Source of the DNA: Leptotrichia trevisanii DSM 22070
GTDB taxonomy: Bacteria > Fusobacteriota > Fusobacteriia > Fusobacteriales > Leptotrichiaceae
Assembly: GCF_000482505.1 (NCBI RefSeq)
Contig: NZ_AXVL01000024.1
Coordinates: 1 to 60,069 of the forward strand
DNA: 60,069 nt
Direction of reading: 5' to 3'
The notes under the pieces are model-generated. The model was given only the letters and a program-made list of their open reading frames with translations, searched no databases and was not told where the DNA came from. The position numbers and the translations under genes were made by a program. Positions 1,613 through 52,420 of this stretch are shown piece by piece; position 1 is the stretch's first letter; each line of letters starts with the position of its first letter.

Positions 1613-1680
1613 TTTATACTAAACCCTATTTAAAAAATAGTAATAAAATTTTATAATAATTAGTTTGATAGCCTTGTAAA
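1613..1680 (+). repeat. TATACTAAA-type repeat, copy 1 (one end only)
   Basis: It begins TTATACTAAACCCTATTT and continues with an AATAAAATTTTATAATAA-like stretch. It matches copy 3 (52278-52420, reverse strand) and copy 2 (34573-34690) over roughly 50 bases. The opposite inverted end is missing here, so this is a degenerate or solo end. About 120 bases downstream lies the paired hairpin element, as in copy 2. Confidence 0.5.
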
Positions 1681-1802
1681 AAAAATCAAATCTAATTTTT
1701 AAGTATTCGTATAAGGGATTTTTATTCAAATTTTGAAAAACTGCTTATTATTAATAAATGTTTTTCATAATTTTATGTTTTTTCTTTTTATATGATATAA
1801 GC

Positions 1803-1909
1803 AAGGGAAATGAGTCGCTATTTCCCTTTATTTCACAATAATAATTATTTTAACATATTTAACTAGTAGCATATTAAAAAGGATGGCGAAAGTGCTATGT
1901 ACTAATCCT
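1803..1909. repeat. Paired inverted hairpin element, copy A
   Basis: The first hairpin is AAGGGAAA, loop TGAGTCGCTA, TTTCCCTT (1803-1828). The second, on the other strand, has an AGGAT/ATCCT stem at 1880-1909 whose loop contains TCGCC (GGCGA on the plus strand). The second hairpin's 24 bases at 1885-1908 match 35173-35196 at 23 positions. The two hairpins face each other like the halves of a BIME/REP pair. Stems differ between copies while the loop core stays. Confidence 0.6.
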
Positions 1910-12280: not shown

Positions 12281-12356
12281 GGTCGCATAGCTCAGTTGGG
12301 AGAGCACCTGCCTTACAAGCAGGGGGTCATTGGTTCGAGCCCAATTGTGACCACCA
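12281..12356 (+). tRNA. tRNA-Val (anticodon TAC)
   Basis: 76 bases including an encoded CCA. The acceptor stem GGTCGCA/TGTGACC, the D-arm AGCTCAGTTGGGAGAGC, the anticodon loop TTACAA and the T-arm GGTTCGAGCC all fold as a normal tRNA. Confidence 0.97.
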
Positions 12357-12363
12357 TTTTTAT

Positions 12364-12440
12364 GGAGGTGTAGCTCAGCTGGTTAGAGTGCTTGCCTGTC
12401 ACGCAAGATGTCGCGAGTTCGAGTCTCGTCACTTCCGCCA
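12364..12440 (+). tRNA. tRNA-Asp (anticodon GTC)
   Basis: 77 bases with encoded CCA. The acceptor stem GGAGGTG/CACTTCC contains one G-T pair. The anticodon arm is TTGCC-TGTCAC-GCAA and the T-arm holds GAGTTCGAGTCTC. It lies 7 bases after tRNA-Val. Confidence 0.97.
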
Positions 12441-12443
12441 TTT

Positions 12444-12519
12444 GCCCAGATAGCTCAGTCGGTAGAGCAAGGGACTGAAAATCCCTGTGTCCGTGGTTCG
12501 ATTCCGCGTCTGGGCACCA
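12444..12519 (+). tRNA. tRNA-Phe (anticodon GAA)
   Basis: 76 bases with encoded CCA. The acceptor stem is GCCCAGA/TCTGGGC. The anticodon arm is AGGGA-CTGAAAA-TCCCT. Three bases separate it from tRNA-Asp, so the three tRNAs form one transcript. Confidence 0.97.
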
Positions 12520-34572: not shown

Positions 34573-34690
34573 ATTAATACTAAATCCCGTTTAGAAATAG
34601 GAATAAATTTTTATAATAAGGTTGTTTAATAGCAAATTCGTAATTATTCAATTAAATTATTTTTTAGATATTTTGATTAATAAATATTTT
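34573..34690 (+). repeat. TATACTAAA-type repeat, copy 2
   Basis: It starts TAATACTAAATCCCGTTTAG and continues with an AATAAATTTTTATAATAAGG-like stretch, matching copy 3 read in reverse over about 80 bases (including GTTGTTTAATAGC and TAATTATTCAA). Only one end is preserved. It is followed by TTAATAAATATTTTTTCAT, also found before the hairpin elements at 1.75 and 44.28 kb. Confidence 0.55.
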
Positions 34691-34819
34691 TTCATATTAC
34701 TATGTTTTTTCTTTTTTATTTTCGTAGGATTGCTCATTGCCGCAAAACCTTATCTTGCAGTAAAGGTTTATCCTGATAATCAAAATATTTGGCAAGATTG
34801 CTACGCAATAACCTATGGC

Positions 34820-34918
34820 TAGTCTACGACATTTTACTGCACTGACAAAAAACTCGCTATGCTCAAACAGTTTTGCCAGCACAGAAAAATGCTCCGACGG
34901 ATTATTTATGCTAGACTA
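34820..34918 (-). repeat. Nested hairpin with TGTTTGAGC/AGCGAG loop words (HP3)
   Basis: The outer stem is TAGTCTA (34820-34826) with TAGACTA (34912-34918), perfect over 7 bases. The inner stem is CTGACAAAAAACT (34842-34854) with AGTTTTGCCAG (34869-34879). On the minus strand the inner loop region reads TGTTTGAGC, two bases, AGCGAG. The same two words flank the loops of the two hairpins at 44.35-44.66 kb, whose stems are unrelated. Confidence 0.5.
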
Positions 34919-35087
34919 TGTTTGAAAAATGAAAAAAATATATGTAAACTCATTTAAAATTGAACTACTAAAATTATACAAATTTTGTATTTTTAAAAAT
35001 TTGTAGTATAATCTAACAATAGCAAAACATAAATTTTTTGTTATTAATAGTTAATTCTTTTATTTTTATATTTTTTCTTTTTTTACA

Positions 35088-35209
35088 AAGCAAAGGGGAA
35101 TAGTCGCCATGCCCTTTTATTTCGCAATATTAGTTGTTTCAATTTCTTCAAATTATAACATCTGAAGATTTTGGCGAAAGTGCTATGCACTAATCCCCGC
35201 TTGTCTAAG
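35088..35209. repeat. Paired inverted hairpin element, copy B
   Basis: The first hairpin is AAAGGG (35092-35097) with CCCTTT (35112-35117), loop containing AGTCGCCAT. The second, at 35173-35196, is nearly identical to copy A and carries GGCGA on the plus strand. It is followed by GCTTGTCTAAG (35199-35209), which recurs at 44341-44351. The first 23 bases match copy C at 22 positions. Confidence 0.6.
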
Positions 35210-35329
35210 CATTTTTATTTGATTATAACAAATAATTTTATTAAAAAAAAAGATAGCTATATAAATAAAAAAATAATTATTCATAAAATTAGTTTTTAAA
35301 TAAATAGAAAATGAGGGAAGATGAGAAAT

Positions 35330-43111: not shown

Positions 43112-44095
43112 ATGAAATATCATTTTAAAGATTTAGGATTAAGCAACACTAAAGAAATGTTTGCTAAAGCAAATAAAGAAGGTTATGCAGTACCTGCTTT
43201 TAACTTTAACAACATGGAACAATTACAAGGAATTATCGAAGCATGTGTTGAAGAAGGATCACCAGTAATTCTTCAAGTATCAACAGGTGCAAGAAAATAT
43301 ATTGGTAAAGAAATGTTGCCTTGGCTTGCAAAAGCTGCAACAGCTTATGTAGAAGCATCTGGATCAGACATTCCAGTAGCATTGCACTTGGATCATGGTC
43401 CAAATTTTGCTGAAGCAAAAGACTGTATCGAATACGGATTCTCTTCAGTAATGTATGATGGATCTCATCACCCATATGATGCAAATGTTGCAGAAGCAAA
43501 ACAAGTTGCTGATTTCGCTCACCAACACGATGTAACAGTTGAAGCTGAATTAGGAGTTTTAGCTGGAATCGAAGACGATGTGGTAGCAGCAGAACACGTT
43601 TATACTCAACCTGATGAAGTTGAAGACTTCGTATCAAAAACAGGAGTTGATTCATTAGCAATCGCAATTGGAACTTCTCACGGAGCTCACAAATTCAAAC
43701 CAGGGGACGATCCTAAATTAAGATTGGATATCTTGGCAGAAATCGAAAAAAGAATACCTGGATTCCCAATCGTATTACATGGTTCATCAGCTGTACCAAA
43801 ACAATTTGTAGAAATGATTAACCAATATGGTGGAAAAATTGCTGACGCAATTGGTATCCCTGATTCAGAATTAAGAAAAGCCGCTAAATCAGCAGTAGCT
43901 AAAATTAACGTAGATACTGATGGAAGATTAGCTTTCACAGCAGGAATCAGAGAAGTATTCGCTAAAAAACCAGGAGAATTTGATCCTAGAAAATATGTAG
44001 GGCCTGCAAAAGACTACATGAAAGAATACTACAAAGATAAAATCAGAAACGTATTTGGATCAAACGGAGCTTATAAAGCTGGAGCTGCAAGATAA
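43112..44095 (+). CDS. fba: Class II fructose-bisphosphate aldolase
   Basis: 327 residues. Zinc ligands lie in ALHLDHGPNF, VEAELGVLAG, IGTSHGAHKF and VLHGSSAVP. It cleaves fructose-1,6-bisphosphate in glycolysis. A perfect AGGAGG precedes the ATG. Codon use is visibly different from the neighbours, with more frequent C-ending and CCA codons, as expected for a very highly expressed gene. A strong terminator follows. Confidence 0.96.
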   Translation: MKYHFKDLGLSNTKEMFAKANKEGYAVPAFNFNNMEQLQGIIEACVEEGSPVILQVSTGARKYIGKEMLPWLAKAATAYVEASGSDIPVALHLDHGPNFAEAKDCIEYGFSSVMYDGSHHPYDANVAEAKQVADFAHQHDVTVEAELGVLAGIEDDVVAAEHVYTQPDEVEDFVSKTGVDSLAIAIGTSHGAHKFKPGDDPKLRLDILAEIEKRIPGFPIVLHGSSAVPKQFVEMINQYGGKIADAIGIPDSELRKAAKSAVAKINVDTDGRLAFTAGIREVFAKKPGEFDPRKYVGPAKDYMKEYYKDKIRNVFGSNGAYKAGAAR

Positions 44096-44123: not shown

Positions 44124-44166
44124 GGACTATCTCAAGTTTATCCTAAAACTTGGGATATTCCTTTTG
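44124..44166 (+). terminator. Terminator after fba
   Basis: GGACTATCTCAAGTT (44124-44138) pairs with AACTTGGGATATTCC (44147-44161) over 15 bases with two weak positions, followed by TTTT. Confidence 0.8.
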
Positions 44167-44353
44167 AGTTTTACATAAATAAAATTTGTTTAAAAGAGGT
44201 GAAAATTTTTTTTTTCCTCTTTTTTTGTGGAAAAACAACAAAATAAATTTTTAAAAATTTGTGAAATGAAATATTGTTAATAAATATTTTTTCTTTTTTT
44301 AAAGCAAAGGGGAACAGTCGCCATCCCCTTTGCAAACCCGGCTTGTCTAAGAA

Positions 44354-44469
44354 TTTTTTTGAAATGAAATTGATTGTTTGAGCTTTTTCAAAATTTTTAG
44401 ACTGTAATTAATTTAAGAAATTATAATAATATTTGTTAAAAAGCGAGTTTCAATTTCATTTCAAAAAAA
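44354..44469. repeat. Long hairpin HP1 with perfect 20-bp stem
   Basis: TTTTTTTGAAATGAAATTGA (44354-44373) is perfectly complementary to 44450-44469. Immediately inside the stem are TGTTTGAGC on the left (44375-44383) and AGCGAG on the right (44442-44447). The loop is about 76 bases, AT-rich. Confidence 0.65.
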
Positions 44470-44523
44470 TCACGACATTTTTAGTTTAATTAAAACAATT
44501 AATTTAACTAAAACAAAAAATAA

Positions 44524-44654
44524 GCAAAATTTCGTTAGAAGAAAAATAGCTGTCTGAGCTTTTGGAATAGACTTTACATAAAACAAAGTTATATAAATTG
44601 AGATAATCTATATTCAAAAGTGAGTTCTATTTTTCTTTTATAAGAAAGTTTTGC
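44524..44654. repeat. Long hairpin HP2, paralogue of HP1 with unrelated arms
   Basis: The left arm is 44524-44549 and the right arm 44628-44654. They are complementary apart from a two-base bulge and a few mismatches. Inside the stem are TGTCTGAGC (44551-44559) and AGTGAG (44619-44624), matching HP1 and HP3, although the arms share no sequence with HP1. The outer part of the left arm (44521-44540) recurs exactly at 20328-20347. Confidence 0.6.
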
Positions 44655-44882
44655 GTAAAGCGTGGGTGCAGGGAGATGGCGATTGATCTCCCTGCTTAAA
44701 ATAAACTTGAACATAAATAAACTTGAGAAAAAACAGTTATTAATCATAATATATTAAAATTAAAAAAAGAGATTTAAAAAGAATAGTTTAAAAAATAATA
44801 ACTTACTAAATTAAGTGATATTTTATAAAATTGCCAAAAATATTTAAAATTGAATAAATAGGAATAGAAAATAGGAGGAAAA

Positions 44883-46496
44883 ATGGACAGACAGAATAAT
44901 ACGACAAAATATATATTTGTTACAGGTGGAGTTGTTTCATCACTTGGAAAAGGGATTGTAGCTTCTTCTTTAGGGAGATTACTTAAAGAGAGAGGCTATA
45001 AGGTTACAATTCAAAAGTTTGATCCATATATAAATGTGGATCCAGGAACTATGAGTCCTTATCAGCATGGAGAAGTTTTTGTTACAGAGGACGGAGCAGA
45101 AACTGACTTGGATTTGGGGCATTATGAGAGATTTATCAATGAGAATCTGACAAAGTATAATAATTTGACTACTGGGAAAATTATGTCGAAGATTATTGCG
45201 AAAGAGCGTCATGGAGAATTCTTGGGAGGAACTGTGCAAACTGTGCCTCACATGACAGATGAAATTAAGTACAATGTTATAAAAGCGGCTGAGGAAAATA
45301 ATTCGGATATTGTAATTACTGAGATTGGCGGGACAATTGGGGATATTGAAAGTGATCCGTTTATCGAGGCAATTCGTCAGTTGAAAAGAGAAGTTGGCAG
45401 AGAGAACATTGCCTATATTCACGTAACGTTATTGCCTTATTTGAAAGCTGCTGGAGAATTGAAAACAAAACCTACACAGCACAGTGTAAAAATGCTTCAA
45501 GGACTTGGAATCTCGCCAGATGTGATTGTAGTGAGAAGTGAACATCCTGTTGATGAAAATATTAAGAAAAAAATCTCACTTTTCTGTGATATTGATGAAG
45601 AGGCGGTTATTGAATCACTTGACGCAAAAAGCCTTTATGAAATACCACTAACTATGGAAAAATTGGGACTTGCCGATGTAATTTGTAAACATTTTAAAAT
45701 AAAAAATGAAAAACCGTTATTAACAGAATGGACTAAAATGGTGGAAAAATTCAAAAATCCTAAAAGACTTGTAAAAGTGGCAATTGTTGGGAAATATATT
45801 GAATTAAAGGATGCTTATATCAGTATTCACGAATCAATCGAGCATGCTGGATTTAATCTTGATACAAAAGTTGAGATTGACTATTTTAAGGCTGGTGAAT
45901 TTGATGTGAAAAAACTAGCTGATTATGATGGAATTTTAGTGCCGGGAGGATTTGGTGACAGAGGAGTGGATGGAAAAGTTGAAGCGATTAAATTTGCAAG
46001 AGAAAACAATATTCCATTTTTTGGAATCTGTCTTGGAATGCAAATGGCTTGTGTGGAATTTGCAAGAAACGTGCTTGGCTACAAAGGTGCAACTTCAACA
46101 GAATTTGAAAAGGACACTCCATATCCGATCATAAGCCTGATGGAAGAACAAAAAGGGCTAAAAGACATGGGAGGAACAATGCGTCTTGGAGCATATCCAT
46201 GTGTGTTAAAAGACGATAGTTTAGCTGCAAGTGTTTACGGAAGAACTGAAATTGCTGAAAGACATAGACATAGATACGAATTTAATAATGCTTATAGAGA
46301 AGAATTTGAAAAAAATGGAATGGATATTGTAGGATTATCTCCAGATGGAAATTATGTGGAAGTAATTGAAATAAAAGATCATCCATATTTTATAGCATCA
46401 CAATATCATCCAGAATTCAAAAGCCGTCCAAATCGTCCACATCCATTGTTCACAGGATGGATAAAAGCGGCATTAAAAAAACGAAGTGAAAAATAA
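44883..46496 (+). CDS. pyrG: CTP synthase
   Basis: 537 residues, normal length. The synthetase domain starts [22 protein letters not shown] with the P-loop. The glutaminase domain contains [18 protein letters not shown] with the nucleophilic Cys and [12 protein letters not shown] with the catalytic His/Glu. It converts UTP to CTP using glutamine. AGGAGG precedes the ATG. No pyrG-type reiterative attenuator is obvious in the leader. Confidence 0.96.
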
Positions 46497-52277: not shown

Positions 52278-52420
52278 TTTATACTAAACCCCATTTAAAT
52301 AACAAATTTATTACAAACTTTTTTAATAAAAAATAAAAAAGTTGAATGATTATGAATTAGCTATTGAACAACCCTATTATAAAAATTTATTCCCATTTTT
52401 AAACGGGGTTTTAGTATAAA
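52278..52420. mobile_element. Complete TATACTAAA-type MITE, copy 3
   Basis: The left end is TTTATACTAAACCCCATTT. The right end, on the other strand, is TTTATACTAAAACCCCGTTT. This gives inverted ends of about 20 bases bounding 143 bases with no gene. Read in reverse it matches the single-ended copies at 34573 and 1613 over 50-80 bases. It fits a non-autonomous element dispersed by a transposase not present here. Confidence 0.65.

Follow-up and report, generated by a model that had tools for sequence, protein, structure and literature searches.

The hairpin locus between fba and pyrG of Leptotrichia trevisanii is one copy of a dispersed, probably once mobile, palindromic repeat

In Leptotrichia trevisanii DSM 22070, the hairpin-rich DNA between fba and pyrG is no single RNA locus but a copy of a dispersed repeat. 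There are good grounds to regard it as a non-autonomous palindromic interspersed DNA element of a Leptotrichia-specific family, here called family A, which spread most likely, and may still be spreading, by transposition in trans. Family A is repeated and modular, its units are present at some orthologous sites and absent from others, nested modules have been gained or lost within them, and their sequences evolve in a way that preserves base pairs. It is best read as formerly or occasionally mobile, and we infer that it moved as a unit, with the hairpins as recognition ends and by means of an enzyme. A likely mover can be named for an associated layer only, C, and it is the IS630 family.

Anatomy and folding of the fba-pyrG copy

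The DNA analysed (the window) is a stretch of 60,069 nucleotides. Within it the reading frames of fba (43112-44095) and pyrG (44883-46496) enclose the non-coding hairpin region, and among the ORFs of the window none of at least 60 aa lies in this intergenic region. The parts of the copy are as follows.

44265..44294, unstranded: left arm of an outer AT-rich inverted repeat, partner 44726-44755; similar to the outer motif GATTAATAATAGTTTTTTC
44304..44333, + strand: left terminal hairpin, family A L type, GCAAAGGGGA-ACAGTCGCCA-TCCCCTTTGC; stem 44304-44313/44324-44333, 10 bp
44334..44352, + strand: left subterminal box AAACCCGGCTTGTCTAAGA, which partly pairs with 44655-44667 and closes the junction
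44353..44373, + strand: left arm, 5' side of the perfect 21-bp inverted repeat
44374..44449, + strand: left arm interior, TTGTTTGAGC ... GCGAGTT core; compact copies carry a GAA triloop where this one has an AT-rich insert (about 44384-44442)
44450..44470, + strand: left arm, 3' side of the perfect inverted repeat
44479..44513, unstranded: small central inverted repeat in the linker between the arms, variable among copies
44524..44549, + strand: right arm, 5' side, GCAAAATTTC...GAAAAATAG
44550..44624, + strand: right arm interior, CTGTCTGAGC ... GTGAG core; its loop holds an AT-rich insert, 44560-44619
44627..44654, + strand: right arm, 3' side, CTATTTTTC...GAAAGTTTTGC
44655..44667, + strand: right subterminal box GTAAAGCGTGGGT
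44668..44695, - strand: right terminal hairpin, R type, reading GCAGGGAGAT-CAATCGCC-ATCTCCCTGC on the - strand and inverted relative to the left hairpin; stem 44668-44677/44686-44695, 10 bp
44726..44755, unstranded: right arm of the outer AT-rich inverted repeat, partner 44265-44294

A preliminary description of this DNA had seen the hairpins and missed the repetitive nature of the locus. It gave the two outer hairpins, which indeed face each other, stems of 9 and 10 bp; both are of 10 bp. The perfect 20-bp inverted repeat that it reported (44354-44373 with 44450-44469) has 21 bp in fact (44353-44373/44450-44470), the second long hairpin (44524-44549 with 44628-44654) is present in imperfect form at 44524-44549/44627-44654, and the smaller inverted repeat placed near 44478-44513 was found at 44479-44493/44499-44513. 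It had also claimed more pairing than random AT-rich sequence would allow, and comparison with dinucleotide-shuffled controls bears this out on both strands. With RNA parameters z is about -8.5 (-120.2 kcal/mol and z -8.6 on the + strand, -108.8 kcal/mol and z -8.4 on the - strand, with 0/100 shuffles as good in each case), and with DNA parameters about -10 (-10.4 and -9.9 on the two strands). The pairing extends outward of the hairpins into the inverted repeat 44265-44294/44726-44755, which is 77% complementary. Compared with most other copies, the segment 44353-44470 is turned round, in that positions 59-176 of the query match the opposite strand from the rest of the query.

Copies and distribution of family A

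A full unit of family A measures about 390 bp and consists of the left hairpin, the subterminal box GGCTYGTCTAAG, the left arm, an AT-rich linker, the right arm, the subterminal box CGTAAAGCGGGG and the right hairpin in reversed orientation. The two terminal hairpins face inward and have the conserved loop CARNCGCCA, the subterminal boxes pair across the element, and the two internal arms are built on a CTGTCTGAGC/GCGAG core. The outer motif GATTAATAATAGTTTTTTC is present outside most copies. The outer boundary is diffuse: only some of the copies have, about 80-100 bp further out, a motif like AAGTATYYAT. With its terminal inverted repeats, non-coding content, short length and multiple copies, family A has several of the characters of a MITE.

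In the own genome, where copies were counted as blastn matches to the element of the window, 96 matches fall into about 40 places with full or partial copies. Matches occur in all 13 Leptotrichia genomes examined, most of which harbour tens of them, and three (G006, G008 and G010) have one or two each for this query. Family A was absent from 83/83 other genomes of the order, in a first pass that scored few candidates per genome. The exact pattern of one family A end matched Leptotrichia only in a collection of species genomes, in keeping with the genus of the window, and it had no match in viral contigs. The copies are intergenic and, relative to codirectional neighbour genes, lie in the same orientation in 10 cases and in the opposite one in 12. 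No gene of annotated size was found inside family A in the copies examined; the ORFs that overlap it are few and of 60-80 aa. In the open literature searched, no earlier description of such a family in Leptotrichia or Fusobacteria was found.

Two further places in the window carry parts of family A.

1616..1904, + strand: C end and degraded family A left hairpin with a nested D module
35079..35216, + strand: second, partial family A copy, a left end with a nested D module (35118-35192)

Upstream of the latter are a B module (34.7-34.9 kb) and a C end (34577-34595). The whole composite, 34577-35216, stands directly upstream of a gene that starts at about 35320 and that, judged by eye, we take to be holo-ACP synthase-like.

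The fba-pyrG site differs among species. A or part of A occurs there in the own genome (G000), G001, G002 and G004; in G001, where the left half is missing between AAGCAAA direct repeats, the right hairpin and the right arm remain, and G002 and G004 have kept the right half. The intergenic region of G006, G007, G008, G010, G011 and G012 has 250-478 bp and no recognised A unit. The genomes G003, G005 and G009 carry another palindromic element there, namely B, with C ends. It has a AACTGTCTGAGC..GCGAGTTTT core in common with A, and its orientation in G003 and G005 is opposite to that in G009. Pairwise comparisons with G002, G003 and G005, in which the flanks are strongly diverged, gave no clean empty site or target-site duplication for family A; they yielded differences in nested modules and one site resembling a solo end. 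At the best candidate empty site, L027 compared with G002, an apparent solo outer end remains. No coding element was found between family A ends in 1.18 Mb of sister-species sequence. Many of the insertions are old, as the high identity of orthologous copies (e.g. L012) shows. These findings, like the diffuse boundary, weigh against the transposition reading.

Under the proposed mechanism, units of family A would have moved in trans as non-autonomous DNA. The recognised ends would have been the terminal hairpins in extruded form, either single-stranded DNA or a cruciform. The preliminary description had listed a transposition substrate folded as single-stranded DNA among its options. This came among the closest to the present reading as far as a mobile-looking palindromic family is concerned, and the recognition of folded hairpins is the part that we infer.

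The C layer and the nested modules

With at most 2 mismatches allowed, the own genome contains the 19-base C end, ATACTARAYCCCRTTTAAA, 108 times and its reversed control 0 times. Solo C copies measure about 90-190 bp, and one of them lies in the window.

52281..52416, unstranded: solo MITE C, TIR ACTAAACCCCATTTAAA..., 132 bp, with near-perfect inverted ends and TA on both sides

Nearly all C junctions read ..ATA/CTAA...TTAG/TAT.., as would be expected for a putative TA target duplication. C ends bound the IS630-type transposons (Pfam DDE_3) of the sister species G011 and G006, with 17-bp ends in common, which makes it very probable that C is a MITE derived from IS630; the IS630-type transposons of sister species probably moved it. 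At L179, L181 and L189, ends of the ACTAAACCCCGTTTAAA type lie 1109-1111 bp apart around a DDE_3 gene; these 1.11-kb transposons (L179 1396-2504, L181 807-1917, L189 911-2019) include several reading frames that look interrupted or frameshifted. The own genome has only a broken relative, at C10:71230. In this way a widespread MITE of Leptotrichia is now tied to an IS630-type parent in sister species.

C forms the IS630-related outer layer of some composites, and family A might have been no more than cargo, moved only inside C ends. The match between C ends and the TIRs of IS630-type transposons agrees with this, as do the 4 of about 40 family A copies enclosed by inward C ends and 4 more with one C end. 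However, 32 copies, including that at fba-pyrG, have no recognisable C end within 700 bp, and the cargo explanation is accordingly unlikely.

For the transposition of family A in its own right, the nested modules add direct evidence that hairpin loops and feet acquire or lose segments. Module D consists of a GTTC-GTA-GAAC mini-hairpin and a TTTCGC...GCGAAA palindrome; D matches are dispersed, and 14 of the 82 classified terminal ends bear D. At fba-pyrG, the right terminal hairpin of G004 has at its foot a D insert of about 85 bp in place of the GC of G002. At L017, D is present in the own genome and absent from G002, and the left-arm loop, which is GAGC-GAA-GCGAG (a GAA triloop) in the own copy, is 57 bp longer in G002. 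Such orthologous before and after states offer a natural series for palindrome nesting in a bacterial chromosome. Most likely, further palindromic modules entered hairpin loops and hairpin feet once the units had spread, and later diversification proceeded by nested insertion, by inversion through the arms and by deletion between short repeats. Other composites include L044 606-1563, of about 960 bp, in which C ends surround B modules and an A-like right end, i.e. three layers in one intergenic region. A variant of module B (L028 1357-1452, L044 1282-1377) has a long hairpin GGAGCTTTTATTTG...CAAATAAAAGTCG around a GACGACTGGAAGGAGGAG-like internal segment.

A bolder idea, which we hold only tentatively and consider rather doubtful, is that these are selfish DNAs with hairpin ends, whose palindromes take the loops and feet of others as specific targets of transposition, are recognised as folded single-stranded DNA and have their arms kept complementary by templated copying. 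If true, bacterial palindromes would insert into palindromes and so generate nested elements.

Stem evolution and relation to known systems

Covariation among homologues, which the preliminary description had proposed to look for, is found in the terminal stems. In 65 of 68 L and R ends all nine stem pairs are of Watson-Crick type, and the stems come in 11 different sequences. When 35 distinct ends are compared, paired cells make up 99.0%, and 82 cells are changed on both sides as against 1 on one side; such cell counts are tallies of sequences rather than of independent events. Of 500 shuffles, 0 attained the observed value for pairing, for the number of double changes or for the score, and in slid registers the pairing of the terminal stems drops to 31-51%. 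The rarity of one-sided changes suggests templated correction between the arms. Since the stems change almost only in pairs, family A is a test case for in vivo recognition of hairpins or for hairpin-templated repair. The scarcity of intermediates with a single change is also the outcome expected if static palindromes were kept by arm-to-arm templated correction and spread by rearrangement only; this would leave some 40 copies in unrelated intergenic sites unexplained and is very improbable as a full account.

An evolving RNA stem is expected to pass via G-U pairs. G-T (G-U) cells are nearly absent from the terminal stems and substitutions are paired, which argues for DNA-level hairpins; in family A it is apparently the pairing of the DNA that is conserved, and no RNA product. 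A structured non-coding or cis-regulatory RNA between fba and pyrG, one of the options of the preliminary description, could account for the very strong fold excess and for the covariation of homologues. We give it scant credence, because the fold is equally strong on either strand, the copies lie either way round with respect to genes, the left arm runs opposite to that of most copies, the orthologous site is empty of A in other species, dispersed repeats with variable inserts are atypical for an RNA gene, and Rfam covariance models gave no match at the gathering threshold or even at E<=1. Annotators should be cautious not to call such hairpin loci RNA genes. A role as intrinsic terminator was considered and rejected: the left hairpin has one weak terminator-like site, on the - strand, and the right hairpin has none, so that termination is not the common feature. 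A terminator-like site just after fba (44128-44157) lies outside the element.

The preliminary description had also suggested a composite of nested REP-like elements. The nested, dispersed and palindromic character holds, and membership in the REP/RAYT system does not. By definition, a REP palindrome bears the tetranucleotide GTAG or CGTC at one of its ends (PMC3733652). In the aligned ends of family A the hairpin is flanked by AA or TAAC on the 5' side and by AAYCC-type sequence on the 3' side, and a CGTC-like string, GGCTCGTC, lies about 10 nt inside the element, away from the hairpin end. That family A is a REP/BIME moved by a RAYT (Y1, IS200/IS605-like) transposase, as short GC-rich hairpins in inverted intergenic pairs and Y1 transposases in 10 of 13 genomes of the genus might suggest, is hardly to be believed, given the missing tag, the absence of Y1 (PF01797) from the own genome, G003 and G004, all rich in family A copies, and the lack of family A ends beside the six sister Y1 loci examined (L170-L175). 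G008 harbours 9 Y1 transposases (e.g. L171), seven of them scoring the same, yet few family A copies.

Family A thus resembles the REP/BIME of Enterobacteria and Pseudomonas in its inverted pairs of short GC-rich hairpins, intergenic position, high copy number and hairpin-preserving variation, but differs in the lack of a GTAG tag and of a RAYT in the genome, in the 390-bp unit and in the conserved long arms. BOX and RUP of Streptococcus pneumoniae are modular stem-loop repeats, and RUP has TIRs in common with an IS630 element (PMC3049150). By description these are alike in their modular stem-loops, and the tie between RUP and IS630 parallels MITE C; BOX modules, however, form tandem arrays, whereas those of family A are nested in hairpin loops and feet. 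Layer C carries the IS630-type TIRs of sister species, as do IS630-derived MITEs, while most family A copies are without these ends. The insertion sequences IS1397, ISPsy8 and IS621 target REPs, and ISPsy8 inserts at the symmetry axis of the predicted hairpin (PMC1525189); insertion into palindromes is a likeness, but the inserts of family A are themselves gene-free palindromes. Short palindromic repeats in Volvox organelles are often inserted into one another and are thought to be selfish DNA (PMC2670323), and this source names, by citation only, the double-hairpin elements of fungal mtDNA alongside them. Likened by description, the Volvox repeats agree with family A in mutual insertion and differ in their organelle setting and shorter units. 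By anatomy, no GTTRRRY-type core (integron attC) was noticed in the hairpin ends. Because family A does not pass the REP/RAYT tests and no target duplication was demonstrated, it is placed in no single known family and is described as a distinct variant of MITE- or REP-like palindromic repeats. Elsewhere in the window, a cluster of three tRNA genes occupies 12281-12516.
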